Program-made: the position numbers and the translations under genes
Assembly (NCBI GenBank): GCA_903851195.1
Contig: CAINNJ010000004.1
Coordinates: 372,001-436,000 of the forward strand
DNA length: 64,000 nt
Direction of reading: 5' to 3'
From: an uncultured Acidobacteriia bacterium
Lineage (GTDB): Bacteria > Acidobacteriota > Terriglobia > Bryobacterales > Bryobacteraceae
Notes under the pieces: generated by a model
Database searches by the model: none
What the model saw: the letters and a program-made list of their open reading frames with translations, nothing else
What the model was told of the DNA's origin: nothing
Part shown: piece after piece, positions 49,779-57,750 of the stretch
Layout: every line of letters starts with the position of its first letter
Numbering within the stretch: the stretch's first letter is position 1

Positions 49779-52700
49779 CTAGAACAGGATCCGGAGACCC
49801 ACCTGCGCGCGCCGGGCCGTGGTGCCGTTCAGGCTTTCCGAAGTCGCCGAGATCGCCCCGTACGAAGCATTCGGAACCAGTGCCGTGATCCCGTTCAGGG
49901 GACCCGACGTCTGTTTGATCGCCGTGTACTGCTGCGCCACTCTGGCGCCCGAACCCTGCACCAGAACGTGGTTGAAGACGTTGAACGCTTCGAAGAAAAG
50001 GTTCAGTTTCACCCGCTCGGTGACGGAAATGCCCTTCTGCAGCCGCGCGTCCGTCTTAAAGATATTGCTCAGCTTCAGAAACGCGGTATCTTCAAACGGA
50101 ACGCGGCTCGATCCGCCCAAACCGTTCAGCGAACTCGTGCTGAGCGTGCCGACGGTCGTCCCGTTCGGCAGATACGGACGATCCCGCGTGCTGATCGTGG
50201 GCGCGATGCCGAAAGGAGTACCCGCCAGTTCGATGACCGAGAGCTGCCAGCCATTGACGACGTTCTTCGAGAACCAGTCGGTCCGTTTAGTGAACGTCGG
50301 AGCGAGGATCCCGTTGACCACCAGCCGCTGCCGTTCATCGCTGGAGCTATTGCCTTTTTCGCCGTTATAGTCGCCGTTGAAAACCGAAGTGGCGAAGGTG
50401 GAACCGAACAGCGTGTTCCCGCCGCCGCCCTGGTTGTTGTCGATCGAGTGGCTCCAGGTATACGCCACGTCTCCCATGAACCAGCCGGAGAAGCGCTTGT
50501 TCATCTGCACCAGCAGGCCGTCGTAGTAGCTTTTGCCTGCCGATTCCAGCTGATACACACCACCATAGGCCGGGTTGATCCGCGTGGTGTAAAGCGGAGT
50601 CGTGTAGCTGCCCACCTGCGCGTTGGACGCGTCCAGAATCGGGAACGTGTAGCTGGTGGTCGGCGCCGCAGCGTTGACGTCGCGCGTCTGCAGCAAATGC
50701 AGGCCGAGACTCCACACGTAGGAAACCGTCAGGCTGGTGTCTTTCGCGAGTTGCCGCTCAACGGCCACCGTGCCCTGCTGCGAGTAAGGATTCCGCCACT
50801 TTTTGTCGAGGAACAGAATGGTCGAGGCGCCCGTGATACCCACCGGCTGCGCCGCGAGCGGATTCGGGAACACCGGACCACCCGCGGCGATCTGTGCGGC
50901 CGAACTGAGCGTGTAGGTCGCCTGATACAGACCGTTGGTGACGAAAGCGTTTTCCACGGTCGACGAGGTATACCGGTTGAAGAAAAGACCGTAGCCGGCC
51001 CGAACCACCGTTTTGTCGTCGATCGTGTAAGCCACACCCAGGCGGGGACCGAAGTTCTTGCTGGTCTGGGGCACTACCGCCGTTTGCGGCCAAGCCGGAT
51101 TCGTCAGCGAAGGCTGCGGCAGGAACGTCCGCTCGTACCGAAGACCGGGGCTGACCACCAGTTTCGGCGTCACATGCCACTGGTCCTGAACGAAGAACGA
51201 CATCTCACTCAGTTTCGTGTCGACTTTCGGGTTACCGAACGTCTGCGAGTACGAGGAGTAATTCCGCGCTCCGTTGGTGTTGCCGCTGTAATCGAGCGCG
51301 AACGCCGCGAACGAAGGATACGAGTAGGTGCCGTACCGGTTGGCCAGACGATCCACGTAGTCTTCCACGCGCGAATAATCGAAGCCAAACTTCAGCGCGT
51401 GCGAGCCGCGGTTCCAGGAATAGGTATCCGCAATCTGATGCCGCGTCTCACTCGGATTCAGGCGCGGATAGCCGTTCGGAATCGCCAGGTTGCTGCCGGT
51501 GTTGGTCACGCTGAGCGAGATCGGTCCAAAGGACGGGCGCAGACTCGGGCTGGCCGGGTCGAACTGCCGGTCGATGAACAGACCGTACCGCAGCGAATTG
51601 ACCGCGGAAGGCGTCGCCACGAAAGTCCACTCGGCGCGCGCCGTGCGGTCGAAAACGTTGGTGTCCGCGTTGTTGCCGATACCGTCGCCAGCCGGATACG
51701 AAAGCGCCGTCTGAATGCCGTTCGGCGAACGGAAGTCGAGATAGTTCGCGCTCAGGCTGACCGCGTTTTTGTCGTTCGGGCGATAGTCGATCTTGCCGAA
51801 AAGCAGGTTGATGTCAGACGTGCGGGGCACCAGTTGCGTCTTGATGCGGCTCACCACGTAAGCGGCGGCAGCGGCGCACTGGGAAGCGGTCGGAGTCACC
51901 CCGCCGACCGCCGTGCAGGCGTTCGGACGAAGATTCAGATTCGCATCGAAGGGACCGCTGGTGGACGTCGCCGTCAGCAGGTTCGACGAAACAATCGGCT
52001 CGTTGCGCCGCTGCAATTCGCCGTTGAAGAAGTAGAAGAGTTTGTTCTTGATGATCGGTCCGCCGACGCTGGCGCCCGCCTGATGCCGCCACTCCGGCGG
52101 ATTCACGCCCTGCGCCGTGATGTCGGTCGCGTTCAGCGTCCGGTTGCGGAAGAACCAGTAGAGAGTTCCGTTCAGATCGTTCGATCCGCTGCGCGTGACC
52201 GTGTTCACCACACCGCCCGACGCCTTGCCGTATTCGGCGAGGAAGTTGGAGGAAACCACCTGAAACTCCTGCACGGCATCCTGCGCGATGTTGACCGTGC
52301 GGGTACGACCCGCGTTTTCATCGTAAAACTGATTCGTGGTGTCGTTACCGTCCGTCAGAAAAGCATTGCCGCCCGGATTTCCCCGGAACGAGACCAGCCC
52401 GAACGGGCCGTCCGCCGTGACGCCCGGAGTCAGCAGCACGAACGCGTCCACGCGGCGGCCATTGACCGGCAGATCGAGGATCTGACGGCTGCCCACCACC
52501 TGCGAAACATCCGTTTTTTCATTTTCGACCAGAGGCGCTTCGGTCGTCACATCCACCTGAGTGGCCGCCGAACTCACGTTGAGTCGAGGCGTCAGGCCCA
52601 CCACCTGACCGACCGAAAGCTGGATGCCCTTCAGTTCGTAGTTGGCGAAACCGGTTTTGGAGATGGTGACGGAGTAGCCGTCCGCCGGCACCAGCGTCGA

Positions 52701-52913
52701 GCCAGTAAAAGCCCCGGAACCACTGGTTTCCACCTCGCGATGGATACCTTTTGACGGATTGTCGATGACGACTTTCGCCCCGGGGACCACCGAACCCGTT
52801 GCATCCGTAACCACGCCGTTGATTGCTCCAAAGCCGGCCGTCGTCTGCGCCAGAAGCGCGGACGAAAGAGGCAGTGCGAGCAGGAACGCAATTCGCACAG
52901 TGTGTTTGTTCAT
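49779..52913 (-). CDS. Oar-like TonB-dependent receptor with carboxypeptidase-like N-terminus
   Basis: The 1044-residue outer-membrane protein has a signal peptide (NKHTVRIAFLLALPLSSALLAQ). A carboxypeptidase regulatory-like beta-sandwich (about 28-115: GAINGVVTDATGSVVPGAKV, YSVTISKTGFANYELKGIQL) precedes the plug domain (SRQILDLPVNGRRVDAFVLL, SFRGNPGGNAFLTDGNDTTNQF, QEFQVVSSNFLAEYGKASGGVVN). The rest is a large beta-barrel ending in ARRAQVGLRILF, with a C-terminal aromatic. Such receptors import or bind large substrates, often polymers or peptides. A separate possible TonB-like protein is encoded divergently at 53110. The gene is monocistronic with a terminator. Confidence 0.94.
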   Translation of the reverse strand: MNKHTVRIAFLLALPLSSALLAQTTAGFGAINGVVTDATGSVVPGAKVVIDNPSKGIHREVETSGSGAFTGSTLVPADGYSVTISKTGFANYELKGIQLSVGQVVGLTPRLNVSSAATQVDVTTEAPLVENEKTDVSQVVGSRQILDLPVNGRRVDAFVLLTPGVTADGPFGLVSFRGNPGGNAFLTDGNDTTNQFYDENAGRTRTVNIAQDAVQEFQVVSSNFLAEYGKASGGVVNTVTRSGSNDLNGTLYWFFRNRTLNATDITAQGVNPPEWRHQAGASVGGPIIKNKLFYFFNGELQRRNEPIVSSNLLTATSTSGPFDANLNLRPNACTAVGGVTPTASQCAAAAAYVVSRIKTQLVPRTSDINLLFGKIDYRPNDKNAVSLSANYLDFRSPNGIQTALSYPAGDGIGNNADTNVFDRTARAEWTFVATPSAVNSLRYGLFIDRQFDPASPSLRPSFGPISLSVTNTGSNLAIPNGYPRLNPSETRHQIADTYSWNRGSHALKFGFDYSRVEDYVDRLANRYGTYSYPSFAAFALDYSGNTNGARNYSSYSQTFGNPKVDTKLSEMSFFVQDQWHVTPKLVVSPGLRYERTFLPQPSLTNPAWPQTAVVPQTSKNFGPRLGVAYTIDDKTVVRAGYGLFFNRYTSSTVENAFVTNGLYQATYTLSSAAQIAAGGPVFPNPLAAQPVGITGASTILFLDKKWRNPYSQQGTVAVERQLAKDTSLTVSYVWSLGLHLLQTRDVNAAAPTTSYTFPILDASNAQVGSYTTPLYTTRINPAYGGVYQLESAGKSYYDGLLVQMNKRFSGWFMGDVAYTWSHSIDNNQGGGGNTLFGSTFATSVFNGDYNGEKGNSSSDERQRLVVNGILAPTFTKRTDWFSKNVVNGWQLSVIELAGTPFGIAPTISTRDRPYLPNGTTVGTLSTSSLNGLGGSSRVPFEDTAFLKLSNIFKTDARLQKGISVTERVKLNLFFEAFNVFNHVLVQGSGARVAQQYTAIKQTSGPLNGITALVPNASYGAISATSESLNGTTARRAQVGLRILF

Positions 52914-53109: not shown

Positions 53110-54327
53110 ATGTCCCCGGCTCTCGATCCAAACGAATCGGCGGAGTTGGCCCCGGCGGGATACGCCTTGTGGCGGCTCGAGACCGCTCCGCTGGAGATAC
53201 GAATCTCCGTTCACGCGCTGGAAGCCATGGCTGTGGAGGGCGCGAACGGCGGCGTTCTCTACGGACATCGGCCGCCGGACAACCCGGAAGTCGTCTGGAT
53301 TGAGAGCCTCGCCCCCACGGCGCGTGAGGCGGTGGTGGGAACCTGGTCGCGTGATGCCGACCCTGGTGGCGAAGAGGACGCGGGCCTTCACCTGCGTATC
53401 GCGCCTTACCCTTCCGGAGCGCTGACGGCACAGTGCTATCTCCGTAACCCTGCGGGCACGTTCGAACCCGCCTGGCCCATGTTCGCTTTGCCGACAGGAA
53501 ACGCTGCCCCGGCACATCGCCGTCTGGTGCCCGATTTCGACGCAGTCGCCGCTGATCTTCGCCCGCCCACCGATTTCTCCGCGCCCGTTCCGCCAACGTC
53601 TCGGCACGTCCGGCCGATCTCGCAACTGCGCCGTCTCGGGCCCCTTCTGGCCGCCGTTGCCCTTGTGGGGGGCGCGGTCGGCGCTTTTGTGCTCTTCACC
53701 CCGGCAGCGCGAGTGACGGCGCCGCGAACCCCTTCCGCCCGGCCCGATCCCACGCCGCGCCCGCTGGGGCTCTATGTGGACCCCGCCGGACCGGAGTGGC
53801 GAATCTCCTGGAATCCGGCTGCCACCATGCTGCGGGATGCCCGCTCGGTCCGGCTGTTTGTCCAGGACGGAGACGGCCAGAACGTTGTCGAACTGACGCC
53901 GCAAGACCTGGAATCCGCCACCTATCACTACCAGCCAAAGGGGAATGATGTAACATTCCGGCTGGAAACGACCGATAGAGAAGGGCGGATCACAGCGGAG
54001 TCGTTCCGTCTTTTGAACACGGTAACGGCAACTCCGGCGGAAGAAGCCTCCACGCCGCCGCGCGCCAGCCATCGGGTTGCTCCCGTCGTGGCAGCCGGTG
54101 TGCGTCCGCGTATCAAAGGCAAAATCCCGGTGGATGTCCGGGTGGAGATCGACAGCAACGGTCTGGTAGTCGCCGCGGCGCCTCTGACGAAACCTCGTCG
54201 CGGTCTCGAGACCTATCTGACCGAGCGGGCCGTGCGTGCCGCCCGGGAGTGGCGTTTCGAGCCGGCTACGAAAAACCACAAGCCGGTCGGCAGCGCGCAC
54301 ACGATCCACTTTATGTTCGGGCACTAG
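53110..54327 (+). CDS. TonB C-terminal domain protein with possible JAB-like N-terminal domain
   Basis: The 405-residue protein has three parts. Residues about 20-160 are cytoplasmic and contain RISVHALEAMAVEGANGGVLYGHRP, followed by strands such as VVWIESLAP; this resembles the JAB/MPN-like domains of acidobacterial proteins, but the JAMM metal-binding HxH...D set is not evident. A single membrane helix (LGPLLAAVALVGGAVGAFVLF, about 177-197) and a Pro-rich region follow. Residues about 310-405 form a TonB C-terminal domain (VDVRVEIDSNGLVVAAAPLT, ERAVRAAREWRFEPATKN). It may energise the divergent TonB receptor. Domain identity of the N-terminus is tentative. Confidence 0.72.
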   Translation: MSPALDPNESAELAPAGYALWRLETAPLEIRISVHALEAMAVEGANGGVLYGHRPPDNPEVVWIESLAPTAREAVVGTWSRDADPGGEEDAGLHLRIAPYPSGALTAQCYLRNPAGTFEPAWPMFALPTGNAAPAHRRLVPDFDAVAADLRPPTDFSAPVPPTSRHVRPISQLRRLGPLLAAVALVGGAVGAFVLFTPAARVTAPRTPSARPDPTPRPLGLYVDPAGPEWRISWNPAATMLRDARSVRLFVQDGDGQNVVELTPQDLESATYHYQPKGNDVTFRLETTDREGRITAESFRLLNTVTATPAEEASTPPRASHRVAPVVAAGVRPRIKGKIPVDVRVEIDSNGLVVAAAPLTKPRRGLETYLTERAVRAAREWRFEPATKNHKPVGSAHTIHFMFGH

Positions 54328-54398: not shown

Positions 54399-55835
54399 TT
54401 GTTATTCCGCATTTACAGGAACTTTTATTACTCTTTCGTACTCATCGCCCTCTCTGGGCTGCTTCCGGTTGCCGCATTCAGCCAGTTCGCGGACCGCTAT
54501 GCTCTGGTGCTGGCCGATCCGCCGGTGTCGGTCCGCTACACGTCCCGCGCCGAACTGCAGTCCTTCGCGGCAGCCGGTTATCGCCAGACCATCGAACGGC
54601 AGCAGGCTTCGCTCCGCACGGAACTGGCGTCGCGGAATTTCTCCATTACCGGGTCGAACAGCCTGCTGGTGAACGCCGTCTTTGTCCGGTCTTCGCCCGA
54701 CCGCGTCGCGGAACTGGCGGCGCTCCCCGGAGTTAAGGGAGTGGTCCGGCTGCGTAAATACAAACGGAATCTGAATCAGGCGATTCAGCTTCTCAACAGC
54801 ACCGGGAACAGCGGCACTGCCTGGGGCCTGGCGGGGGGCTCCCCCAATGCGGGCAAAGGGATCAAAATCGGCATCATCGACAGCGGCATCGATCAGAATC
54901 ACCCCTCCCTGCAGGACAACACGCTCACCGTACCGGCCGGCTTCCCGAAGTGTGATACGCCAAGTAACTGCACCAATTTCACGAACAGCAAGGTCATCGT
55001 GGCGCGCAGCTACGTCCGGCAACTGGCCCTCGGGACGGGCGGCATCGATCCGACTACCTCCCGGCCCGACGATTACTCCGCCCGCGACCACAGCGGTCAC
55101 GGCACCGCTGTCGCGACCTGCGCGGCGGGCGCGCCCAGCACCGGCACCGTCGCGATTGCGGGTATGGCGCCCAAGGCCTACCTCGGGAACTACAAGGTCT
55201 TCGGATCGCCCGAAATCAACGATTTCTCCACGGACGACGTGTTAATCGCCGCCCTCACGGACGCCATCAGCGATGGCATGGACATCGTTTCCATGTCCAT
55301 CGGCGGACCGGCTTTCACGGGACCGCTCGATTCCGGTTCCGCCTGCGGGCTGTCGCCCGGGGTGCCCTGCGATCTGGGCGCGTCCGCTTTCGAGGCCGCC
55401 GCTTCCATGAAAGGCGCGCCTGTCATCATCGTGGCGGCCGGAAACCAGGGCGCCAACGGCGTCGGCTACCCGACATTCAACTCGGTCAGTTCCCCGGGAA
55501 CCGCGCCTTCCGTGGTCGCGGTGGGCGGTACGTCCAACTCGCACGGCTTTCTGCCCGCGGTCCGGATCGCCGGGCTTGGGGTGCCTGCGAATCTGACGGC
55601 CATCGCCGCCCAGCCGACCGACACCTCCAATCCGAACTTCGGCGCCTACGCGGCTCCACTGGTCGACGTGGGCAAAATCTCGGCCGATAACTACGCTTGC
55701 GGTGCTCTGCCTGCGGGATCTCTCACGGGGGCCTATGCCCTGATTCAGCGGGGGCCCTCCGACGCCCCGTGCAGTTTCATCAGCAAGTTCTCCAACGCGA
55801 TTACCGCGGGGGGCCGCGGGCGCGATCTTCTATGA
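54399..55835 (+). CDS. Subtilisin-like S8 protease, 5' part of a frameshifted gene
   Basis: TTG 54399 is supported by AGGAG 8 nt upstream. The 478 residues contain a signal peptide, a pro-domain (about 30-120) and the S8 catalytic core: Asp161 in IGIIDSGID and His234 in SGHGTAVA; GPAFTGPLD and IIVAAGNQG follow. An inserted PA domain begins near residue 400. The frame ends at TGA 55833 after SNAITAGGRGRDLL. The Ser nucleophile lies in the other frame downstream (see next entry), so this fragment alone is not a protease. A run of six G (55808-55813) is the break; five would keep the frame. Confidence 0.85.
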   Translation: MLFRIYRNFYYSFVLIALSGLLPVAAFSQFADRYALVLADPPVSVRYTSRAELQSFAAAGYRQTIERQQASLRTELASRNFSITGSNSLLVNAVFVRSSPDRVAELAALPGVKGVVRLRKYKRNLNQAIQLLNSTGNSGTAWGLAGGSPNAGKGIKIGIIDSGIDQNHPSLQDNTLTVPAGFPKCDTPSNCTNFTNSKVIVARSYVRQLALGTGGIDPTTSRPDDYSARDHSGHGTAVATCAAGAPSTGTVAIAGMAPKAYLGNYKVFGSPEINDFSTDDVLIAALTDAISDGMDIVSMSIGGPAFTGPLDSGSACGLSPGVPCDLGASAFEAAASMKGAPVIIVAAGNQGANGVGYPTFNSVSSPGTAPSVVAVGGTSNSHGFLPAVRIAGLGVPANLTAIAAQPTDTSNPNFGAYAAPLVDVGKISADNYACGALPAGSLTGAYALIQRGPSDAPCSFISKFSNAITAGGRGRDLL

Positions 55836-57750
55836 CTACGCGGGCAGCACGGATTTTCCTTTCTCGCCCTCCGGTCTGAGCAGCTTTTCGCAGGCGGCCG
55901 TGCTGATTGGCAACAGCGACGGCGTGAACCTGAAGTCCTTTATCGACGCCAACCCGGGCTCTACGGCAATCATCGATCCCTCGGGAACCGAAGTGCCGGT
56001 CTCACCATTCAACGAACTGGTCTACTACTCCTCCATGGGCCCCGCTCTGGGGACGAACGGGATTAAACCGGACGTTCTCGCCGTCGCGGGCGGTGGTCAG
56101 AACGGCGATCTCATCTATATGGGAGGCCAGTCTTTCGACCCCCTCGGCGATCTCTACACAGCCACCGGTTATCTGGCGGCCGCGGGAACCAGCTTCGCGA
56201 CTCCGCTCACGGCGGGCACCGCGGCGCTGGTCAAGCAGACTCATCCCGGCTATACGGCGGCCCAACTGAAGTCCGCACTGGTCAATACCGCCACCCAGGA
56301 TGTTGTTAACGACGACTCCGGATTCCCGCTGGACATCCTGCAGACCGGAGCCGGCAAAACGGCCGCGGACCTGGCGATCCAGACCAACGTGACCGCGGTG
56401 CCGTCCACTCTCTCGTTCGGCGCCCTGCCTTCAGGCGCGGTCTCGAAGACCGTTCCGGTGACGCTCACGAACACCGGCTCGACGCCGCTGAATCTGACAC
56501 TCGCGGTGGTCGCCACGACGTCCTCCAATGTTGCCAAAGTGGCTCTGGATAAGAGCACGCTCTCTCTGGCAGCCGGAGCGACCGCGACAGTCAACGCCAC
56601 GCTGGCGGGGACGGCACCCTCCGCCGGCCTCTTCTACGGAGCCGTGACGGTGGCCGGCAGCGCGACAGCCCTCCGGATCCCGTATATGTTCCTGGTCGGC
56701 AGCACGGTGCCGGCCAACTTCACTCCGCTCGCCGGCGACCAGAACGACGGGGCCGTGGGGCAGGTGCTCCCCGACGGGTCAGTCGCGTTCCAGATCACCG
56801 ATGCCAATGGCGTCCCGATCCCGAACGCGGCTGTGAACTTCCATGTGAATGCCGGCAGCGCGCCCATCTCCCTGAGCCAGGTTTCCACCGTTACGAACGC
56901 CTATGGGATCGCTGTCGCAACGCCGACTGCCGGCGCCACCACCGGCACCTATTCGATTGAGGGCTGCCTGGGCGCCTGCAGCAGCCGCAACGAATTCGAA
57001 TACACGTTTTCCGGCAACATCCGGAACACGCCGGCCATCTCGCCGAACGGCGTCGTCAACGCGGCCGTTGCGAACCCCGGGACGCCGATCGCTCCCGGCT
57101 CGTACTTCTCGATCTACGGGACCGGGCTGAGCGATCAGACCGACGTCACCACCACCGCCAAACTGCCCGCGGCCATCGACTACGTGAACGTCAGTTTCGA
57201 TGTGCCCTCCGCGCAGTTGAGCGTGCCCGGCCACCTGGTCTTCGTCAGCAATGGCCAGATCAACGCGCAGGTTCCCTGGGAACTACAGGGTCAGACCTCG
57301 GCGCAGGTCAAGGTCACCATCGACGGCATTCCCGGCAACGTCGTTACGGTGCCGCTGGCCAACTATGCACCGGCCTTCTTCGAGATCGGCGCCGGGGTGG
57401 TGGCCGCGATCAATCCGCTGAACGCGTCCAACCCCGTGATCACGGCCACGAATGCCGCCAAACGAGGCGGCGTCATCGCGCTCTACGCCAACGGTCTGGG
57501 CCCGGTCGAGAACCAGCCGGCATCCGGCGATGCGGCGTCGCTTACCGTGCTGTCCAAAACCACGGCACTGCCCGTCGTGACCATCGGCGGCCAGCCCGCA
57601 CAGGTGGCGTTCAGCGGTCTGACACCGGGCCTGCCTGGGCTCTATCAGATCAACGTGACGGTGCCGACCAACATCGGGACCGGCAACCAGCCCGTGACCC
57701 TGGCCATCGGCGGCGCGACGGCCAAGGCCTCCGGCATTACGGTGCAGTAA
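55813..57750 (+). CDS. Subtilisin-like S8 protease, 3' part with ASH-like and TIGR03437-type domains
   Basis: In the shifted frame from 55813 the PA domain resumes (AGAIFYDYAGSTDFPFSPSG). The Ser motif AAAGTSFATPLTAGTAAL carries the catalytic serine (codon 56191-56193). Next come an ASH/Ig-like domain (TLSFGALPSGAVSKTVPVTL), a second Ig-like domain, and a C-terminal domain of the Solibacter TIGR03437 type (GVVNAAVANPGTPIAPGSYF, LVFVSNGQINAQVPWEL, RGGVIALYANGLGPVENQP). Joined to the 5' part it would be a secreted protease of about 1116 residues. An ATG-less start near 55900 is unlikely to be used naturally. Either a pseudogene, phase-variable, or a sequence error. Confidence 0.85.
   Translation, partial: AAGAIFYDYAGSTDFPFSPSGLSSFSQAAVLIGNSDGVNLKSFIDANPGSTAIIDPSGTEVPVSPFNELVYYSSMGPALGTNGIKPDVLAVAGGGQNGDLIYMGGQSFDPLGDLYTATGYLAAAGTSFATPLTAGTAALVKQTHPGYTAAQLKSALVNTATQDVVNDDSGFPLDILQTGAGKTAADLAIQTNVTAVPSTLSFGALPSGAVSKTVPVTLTNTGSTPLNLTLAVVATTSSNVAKVALDKSTLSLAAGATATVNATLAGTAPSAGLFYGAVTVAGSATALRIPYMFLVGSTVPANFTPLAGDQNDGAVGQVLPDGSVAFQITDANGVPIPNAAVNFHVNAGSAPISLSQVSTVTNAYGIAVATPTAGATTGTYSIEGCLGACSSRNEFEYTFSGNIRNTPAISPNGVVNAAVANPGTPIAPGSYFSIYGTGLSDQTDVTTTAKLPAAIDYVNVSFDVPSAQLSVPGHLVFVSNGQINAQVPWELQGQTSAQVKVTIDGIPGNVVTVPLANYAPAFFEIGAGVVAAINPLNASNPVITATNAAKRGGVIALYANGLGPVENQPASGDAASLTVLSKTTALPVVTIGGQPAQVAFSGLTPGLPGLYQINVTVPTNIGTGNQPVTLAIGGATAKASGITVQ

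Follow-up and report, generated by a model that had tools for sequence, protein, structure and literature searches.

How does a gene with the C-terminal domain of TonB come to stand back to back with the gene of an Oar-like TonB-dependent receptor, and does its product couple the cytoplasm to the outer membrane? The original prediction saw a possible JAB-like cytoplasmic domain, joined through one membrane helix to a TonB_C end, and proposed that this domain could sense or process something and tie it to outer-membrane transport. Here we follow the gene, its relatives and its neighbours. The window is the whole stretch of DNA analysed, 64,000 nucleotides in length, and the window protein is the product of the gene in question.

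The gene and its domains

The predicted open reading frame is real, with exactly the coordinates and strand listed in Table 1. The motif GGVLYGHRP is present at residues 47-55; the EALEAMAVEG-like helix is there as well (residues 35-44), and its letters are HALEAMAVEG. A single hydrophobic helix was found by the hydropathy scan, as expected, but the same stretch is unstructured in the AlphaFold model of the window protein (pLDDT about 43-51). The model of an intact relative has a helix at this position (residues 257-278).

Table 1. Features of the locus, with positions in the window and the basis of each assignment
Feature	Position	Strand	Basis
405-aa membrane protein: reduced JAB/MPN - TM - Fn3 - TonB_C	53110..54327	+	ATG start, 405 codons
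Reduced JAB/MPN-like N-terminal domain, residues about 17-127, without JAMM residues	53158..53490	+	Alignment with full-length relatives, weak profile score, orthologue L034, model
Single membrane helix, residues about 177-196, without SxxxH/Q motif	53638..53697	+	Hydropathy; not helical in own model
Fibronectin-III-fold domain, residues about 217-305	53758..54024	+	Model and fold searches
TonB_C domain, residues about 339-404, without YP motif	54124..54321	+	Pfam, genome search, model
Oar-like TonB-dependent receptor, divergent neighbour	49779..52913	-	Pfam; orthologues
S8 subtilase with Soli_cterm (TIGR03437) end, two frames (54399-55835, 55900-57750)	54399..57750	+	ORFs, Pfam, comparison with G011/G009 loci

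Between the helix and TonB_C, a Pro-rich linker had been proposed. A Pro-rich stretch exists, but the region also holds a fibronectin-III (Fn3) fold: the model has the seven-stranded Fn3 sandwich at residues 222-302, and this part matches PDB structures at Z 9 to 10 (9.6 to 6hyf_D, 9.4 to 1ten). The TonB_C end is borne out by a match to PF03544 (residues 341-403, E 1.2e-4), which scores 22.9 bits by hmmscan, below the cut-off of 24.6 bits, and 25.5 bits in the genome search, above it; this was the sole match of the window protein at useful scores in Pfam and NCBIfam. The divergent neighbour is an Oar-like receptor as claimed, with OMP_b-brl_4 (1.8e-109) and CarboxypepD_reg (1.2e-15). On the other side, an S8 subtilase gene begins 71 bases 3' of the window gene on the same strand. 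PADLOC gave 0 matches for the four proteins tested and thus lends a defence role no support. Orthologues of the window gene occur in five other genomes, which makes the observation more than chance, and the reading frame is kept in all six.

A Bryobacterales family with an MPN fold

Searching with the window protein gave matches in 26 of 41 genomes, many through the TonB_C end alone. They include orthologues as well as paralogues with a far better kept N-terminus. Based on these alignments, we assign the window gene as a paralogue to a pseudo-JAMM family of the Bryobacterales (Acidobacteriota), little-known membrane proteins of soil bacteria. The family plan, as read from the sequences, is an N-terminal JAB/MPN domain, one membrane helix, Fn3 and, in some members, TonB_C; the family is a new variant built of known parts.

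The Pfam JAB model matches only 1 of 12 members, at E 0.015. A profile built from nine N-domains reached, among PDB chains, the Caldiarchaeum Rpn11-like protein (3.4e-4 and 8.8e-4), a Mov34/MPN/PAD-1 protein (4.1e-4) and then Abraxas (0.033). We also modelled an intact relative, L101, with AlphaFold (66-sequence alignment, mean pLDDT 83). Foldseek matched this model to 88 PDB chains at E ≤0.001, with Rpn11 (4owp) in first place at 1.8e-7, and the best 50 of the 88 seem, judging by title, to be MPN proteins or complexes containing them. The model aligns with 6fnn_B at Z 13.8 (rmsd 3.0 over 141 residues) and with PfJAMM1 at Z 13.6. As modelled, the N-domain of the family has the MPN fold of the JAB/MPN superfamily. 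The prediction of a JAB-like domain therefore holds for the family, but for the window copy itself the profile score is weak and the evidence indirect.

The JAB domain was found in 178 of 200 genomes of the order sample, 177 of these in the window's own family, and in 16 of 297 genomes of the phylum sample. That public profile libraries hardly detect a domain so common in its order is a point of general interest. All 80 named loci are from Acidobacteriota by title, save one mislabelled record: L137, titled Bordetella parapertussis (a MAG), holds a Bryobacterales-type locus that groups with the Acidobacteriota rows and is probably a mislabelled bin. Searches of the open-licence PMC literature brought up nothing on this JAB-TM-Fn3-TonB_C family, judged by titles and the openings of abstracts.

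By profiles and hydropathy scan, 78 rows have the short form, JAB-TM-Fn3, and 27 the long form with TonB_C, to which four rows without a helix call and five without a JAB call can be added. These counts are not frequencies, since most rows come from 80 loci picked for the short form and 40 picked for their long frames; the window protein is counted twice. The short form (e.g. L101, 8168-10143) lies at most two genes from rsmI, named by TIGR00096, in 59 of 76 cases, at loci that had been gathered with the short form. In 12 of 46 rows (L187-L205), the long form faces, as its immediate 5' neighbour, a protein of 600 aa that Pfam does not recognise and that has pairs of CxxC close to its N-terminus; a TPR protein often stands behind it at these loci of the long TonB_C paralogues. 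The full JAB-TonB_C gene of G013 is closely preceded by the tail end of a second helix-Fn3 protein (L038, 2-511), a layout that resembles a tandem duplication. L046 (452-1876, G025:C771) offers a further case of a cytoplasmic domain joined to TonB_C: a serine/threonine-kinase-like part (by eye), a membrane helix and TonB_C (by profile) follow each other in the same order.

A pseudo-JAMM metal site

The original prediction stated that the JAMM metal ligands are not evident. This is correct and turned out to be a trait of the whole family. The alignment comprises 116 distinct proteins in 124 rows. With gapped positions left out, Arg stands where the first metal His would be in 111 of 113 (119 of 121 by rows), which marks the family as pseudo-JAMM, and Thr takes the place of the Pro of the motif in 108 of 113. 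The JAMM Glu is retained in 113 of 114, the Asp in 112 of 113 and the second His in 87 of 113. Glu, both His and Asp occur together in 1 of 116 distinct members, so the E/HxHP/S/D zinc site of a JAMM metalloprotease (MPN-plus) is not a property of the family. In the HMMER alignment to the Caldiarchaeum protein, YRSHT stands opposite YHSHP, and the Arg would occupy the metal site. Domains of this MPN-minus or pseudo-JAMM kind are known from Abraxas, CSN6 and Rpn8. For studying the role of bacterial MPN folds without metal, an MPN pseudoenzyme anchored in the membrane, with its fixed Arg, offers a clear target.

Erosion of the JAB domain in the window clade

In a tree of the Fn3 region, the window protein and its five same-genus orthologues form a group of six rows with support of 97/94, joined next by a helix-Fn3 protein of G007 (100/99). 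The tree has 122 rows and few columns, its bootstrap had not settled, and the minimal gene of G003 (L041) was left out. Two clade members, G005 and G013, retain the full JAB domain (E about 1e-70; both sequences are in the profile seed). G011 (4e-7) and the window genome, G000 (0.0036), have part of it, and in the G009 and G004 orthologues it went undetected by profile search. With a larger profile that includes G011, the window copy scores E 2.4e-4 in a set of six proteins. A frameshift hiding the domain in G009 and G004 was considered and found no support; neither the gene nor the 900 bases upstream has a profile match. Read in this order, two full, two reduced and two without, the sequences form a series in which the JAB end is eroding.

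The window copy is short by about 55 residues against the family domain in the alignment, and the metal site is absent from it. Its model has strands within residues 18-127 (pLDDT about 67-92). Fold searches with this model returned Fn3 matches and none to MPN, which proves little, as the Fn3 part fills the match lists. Given this result and the weak score of its own, the JAB assignment of the window copy rests on homology through its relatives, with L034 as the link. The cytoplasmic JAB end of the window protein is probably vestigial.

Linkage to an Oar-like receptor

In G000, G011 and G009 the family gene has an Oar-like gene as its divergent neighbour on the 5' side, and so do minimal helix-Fn3 genes in G007 and G003. 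The G003 receptor is cut by the contig end, and its minimal gene was missed by the gene caller. G004 and G013 have no divergent Oar-like neighbour, and the G005 gene, at a contig edge, was left out, giving 5 of 7 assessable genomes. Since the minimal genes face the orthologous receptor as well, the pairing does not need the JAB domain. The pair of G007 and G003 is at another locus, beside amidase-like and superoxide-dismutase-like genes (by eye), and the c5 genes of these genomes are on other contigs; either the two genes were relocated together or there was a rearrangement of the locus.

The proposed conserved linkage is seen in these genomes, at two loci, but does not extend to the long relatives outside the clade. 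Of these, 36 distinct ones could be assessed, and in none is the gene directly next to an Oar-like one, 5' or 3' (46 rows, 44 distinct, 38 outside the clade; a neighbour is visible 5' in 36 and 3' in 36, and TonB_C is called in 32 of the 38). Receptor pairing as a rule of the family was rejected on this count; at L033 an Oar-like gene lies four genes off. Seen from the receptor, orthologues with at least 72% identity are found in five (G000, G011, G015, G007 and, in pieces, G003) of 25 genomes searched, and four of the five face a family member; that of G015 does not.

At least 65 Oar-like receptors are encoded in the window genome (of 137 candidates, 65 scored; the receptor in the window is not in these rows). 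A single genome with such an adjacency would therefore be weak evidence, and the second locus is stronger. The linkage is also partly shared synteny with the genes c3, c4 and c5. A serious rival, which we hold to be possible though on balance unlikely, is that the neighbourhood has no function: a decaying paralogue would have come to lie by chance beside one of many such receptors and been inherited with its surroundings. The large number of receptors, the erosion of the domain and the conserved flanking genes agree with this, as does the identity of the protein between orthologues, 41 to 56% versus 67 to 77% for S8 in G011 and G009. The missing partner in G004, in G013 and beside the G015 receptor fits it as well. 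However, the reading frame has been kept in six genomes and the pairing recurs at the second locus. The receptor slot of G009 (L035, 6505-9588) also speaks against it: its Oar is only 45% identical to that of the window although the neighbours are 71 to 82% identical; some Oar appears to have been kept there while the slot was seemingly refilled by in-place replacement.

Energy coupling

In TonB, an SxxxH-type motif in the membrane helix is the energy-coupling motif. Neither SxxxH nor SxxxQ is present in the helix region of any of the 36 distinct family members with TonB_C. As a control, eight helix-anchored TonB/TolA-like proteins of the window genome have S...H (six) or S...Q (two); being chosen by eye, with the helices already seen, from 19 TonB_C places, they are a soft control, and in L226 another S...Q was matched first, with SxxxH further on. 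The YP motif is missing from TonB_C in all six clade members and present in 16 of 30 members outside the clade (a simple pattern in a fixed stretch, by which some may be missed), which makes docking of the clade's TonB_C on a TonB box doubtful. ExbD is encoded at four places in the genome, two on contig C52 and one each on C25 and C8, and a genome search for ExbD found none on the window contig C4. Close to the ExbD pair on C52 there is a TonB-like frame (262 aa), and ExbB/ExbD may act in trans on the window protein. Lys and Arg around the helix are richer on the N side in 21 of the 36 TonB_C members (equal in 10, less in 5) and in 72 of 86 other members (equal in 10, less in 4), charges that lean towards an N-in orientation.

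With no SxxxH/Q in 36 members, no YP in the clade and no ExbD on the contig, the window protein is unlikely to be a TonB energy transducer. More specifically, it might be a TonB-type transducer dedicated to the adjacent Oar-like receptor, with a cytoplasmic domain for sensing, a reading that we find decidedly improbable. It would explain the TonB_C domain and the adjoining divergent receptor, and it has a precedent in Myxococcus xanthus: the TonB-dependent receptor Oar binds the C-terminal domain of TonB1 in two-hybrid tests and is encoded together with a Ton system (PMC6434023). Besides the missing signatures of energy coupling, two orthologues without a detectable JAB domain speak against it, and so do G007 and G003, where a partner without TonB_C adjoins the orthologous receptor. 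The proposal that a cytoplasmic domain is tied to outer-membrane transport is not supported in that form, as this domain is eroding in the clade, the energy-coupling motif was not seen and the receptor pairing goes no further than the clade and those closest to it.

The neighbouring subtilase

In G000, G011 and G009 the S8 subtilase gene follows downstream in the same orientation; in G013 it is one gene away. It is a single open reading frame in the G011 and G009 loci (1061 and 1120 aa). No paper on its C-terminal domain TIGR03437 (Soli_cterm) was found in the open-licence PMC literature. In G017 and G014, Oar-like and S8 genes are divergent neighbours with no JAB/TonB_C gene between them (L243, 1506-8133; L244, 734-7368); these genomes are close and their receptors share 98% identity, so a single event may lie behind both cases. 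A gene of 528-533 aa before S8 in G007, G003 and G015 was considered as another tether and dropped, as it is quinoprotein-like by eye.

The protease could be the real client of the window protein, which would then be a periplasmic adaptor for S8 export or maturation. In M. xanthus, the subtilisin-like PopC depends on Oar for its secretion (PMC6434023), and the recurring S8 neighbour, including the Oar and S8 pairs of G014 and G017, would suit such a role. But none of the nearest S8 matches in G007, G003, G015, G018, G010 and G002 directly adjoins an Oar-like gene, the window S8 begins with a signal-peptide-like stretch (by eye) and PopC has no signal peptide, and the window assembly breaks the S8 gene into two frames. 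We regard the adaptor role as improbable.

Discussion

The reading that we prefer, and put forward as tentative with somewhat less than even confidence, is a non-energised inner-membrane tether that is paired with an Oar-like receptor and carries a vestigial pseudo-JAB end. The window protein would sit in the inner membrane with its N-terminus inside and its C-terminus outside. Its Fn3 and TonB_C part would span the periplasm and dock on the receptor, or on the protease in passage, so that receptor and inner membrane would be held together without ExbB/ExbD drive. A canonical TonB encoded on another contig, C52, might supply force if any is required. Formerly, the MPN part would have been a cytoplasmic protein-binding pseudoenzyme, and it may now be dispensable in the window clade. 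By comparison with Oar and PopC of M. xanthus (PMC6434023), the tether or adaptor might serve export of the S8 protease. Against a tether stand the unpaired genes of G004 and G013, the absence of pairing in 36 long relatives outside the clade, the at least 65 receptors of the genome, the shared synteny, the Oar and S8 pairs of G014 and G017 that lack the gene, and the missing YP.

A bolder version of the tether would make the single-helix Fn3 inner-membrane protein a new kind of receptor partner. It would form a two-gene cassette with one Oar-like receptor, found at two loci, and could gain or lose a pseudo-JAB end and a TonB_C end; it would tether the receptor for export of the Soli_cterm subtilase and not serve as an energy source. 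Its ancestor would be a lineage-wide membrane pseudo-JAMM protein, locked by the Arg that replaces the first zinc His. We give this version little probability. If it is true, a receptor-linked helix-Fn3 protein would turn the inner-membrane partners of the many Oar-like receptors into a testable question.

Among known systems, the N-domain of the family is closest to the MPN-minus or pseudo-JAMM kind, its nearest structures being Rpn11, the archaeal Rpn11-like 6fnn, PfJAMM1 (5ld9) and Cap3 (9ild). It shares with this kind the MPN fold and the conserved Glu and Asp positions of JAMM, and differs in the Arg for the first His, the Thr for the Pro and the membrane helix and Fn3 to which it is fused; the window copy no longer has the site at all. 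With the transducers TonB and TolA the window protein shares a C-terminal TonB_C, one membrane helix and a Pro-rich stretch. Unlike them, the family has no SxxxH/Q and has a large cytoplasmic domain and an Fn3 insert, the clade lacks YP and the window contig lacks ExbD.

GltJ of the Myxococcus gliding machinery combines a cytoplasmic zinc ribbon and GYF domain with one helix and a periplasmic TonB_C. The window protein likewise has a cytoplasmic part, one helix and a periplasmic TonB_C and may act as a connector, but Pfam detected neither zinc ribbon nor GYF in it at E up to 1. Finally, the locus can be set beside Oar and PopC of M. xanthus (PMC6434023). It differs in that the window contig has no ExbD, the TonB_C protein is non-canonical and the protease has a signal-like start and a Soli_cterm end. 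The likeness, here one of adjacency only, is that an Oar-like TonB-dependent receptor, a subtilisin-like protease and a TonB_C protein are all three encoded at the window locus.
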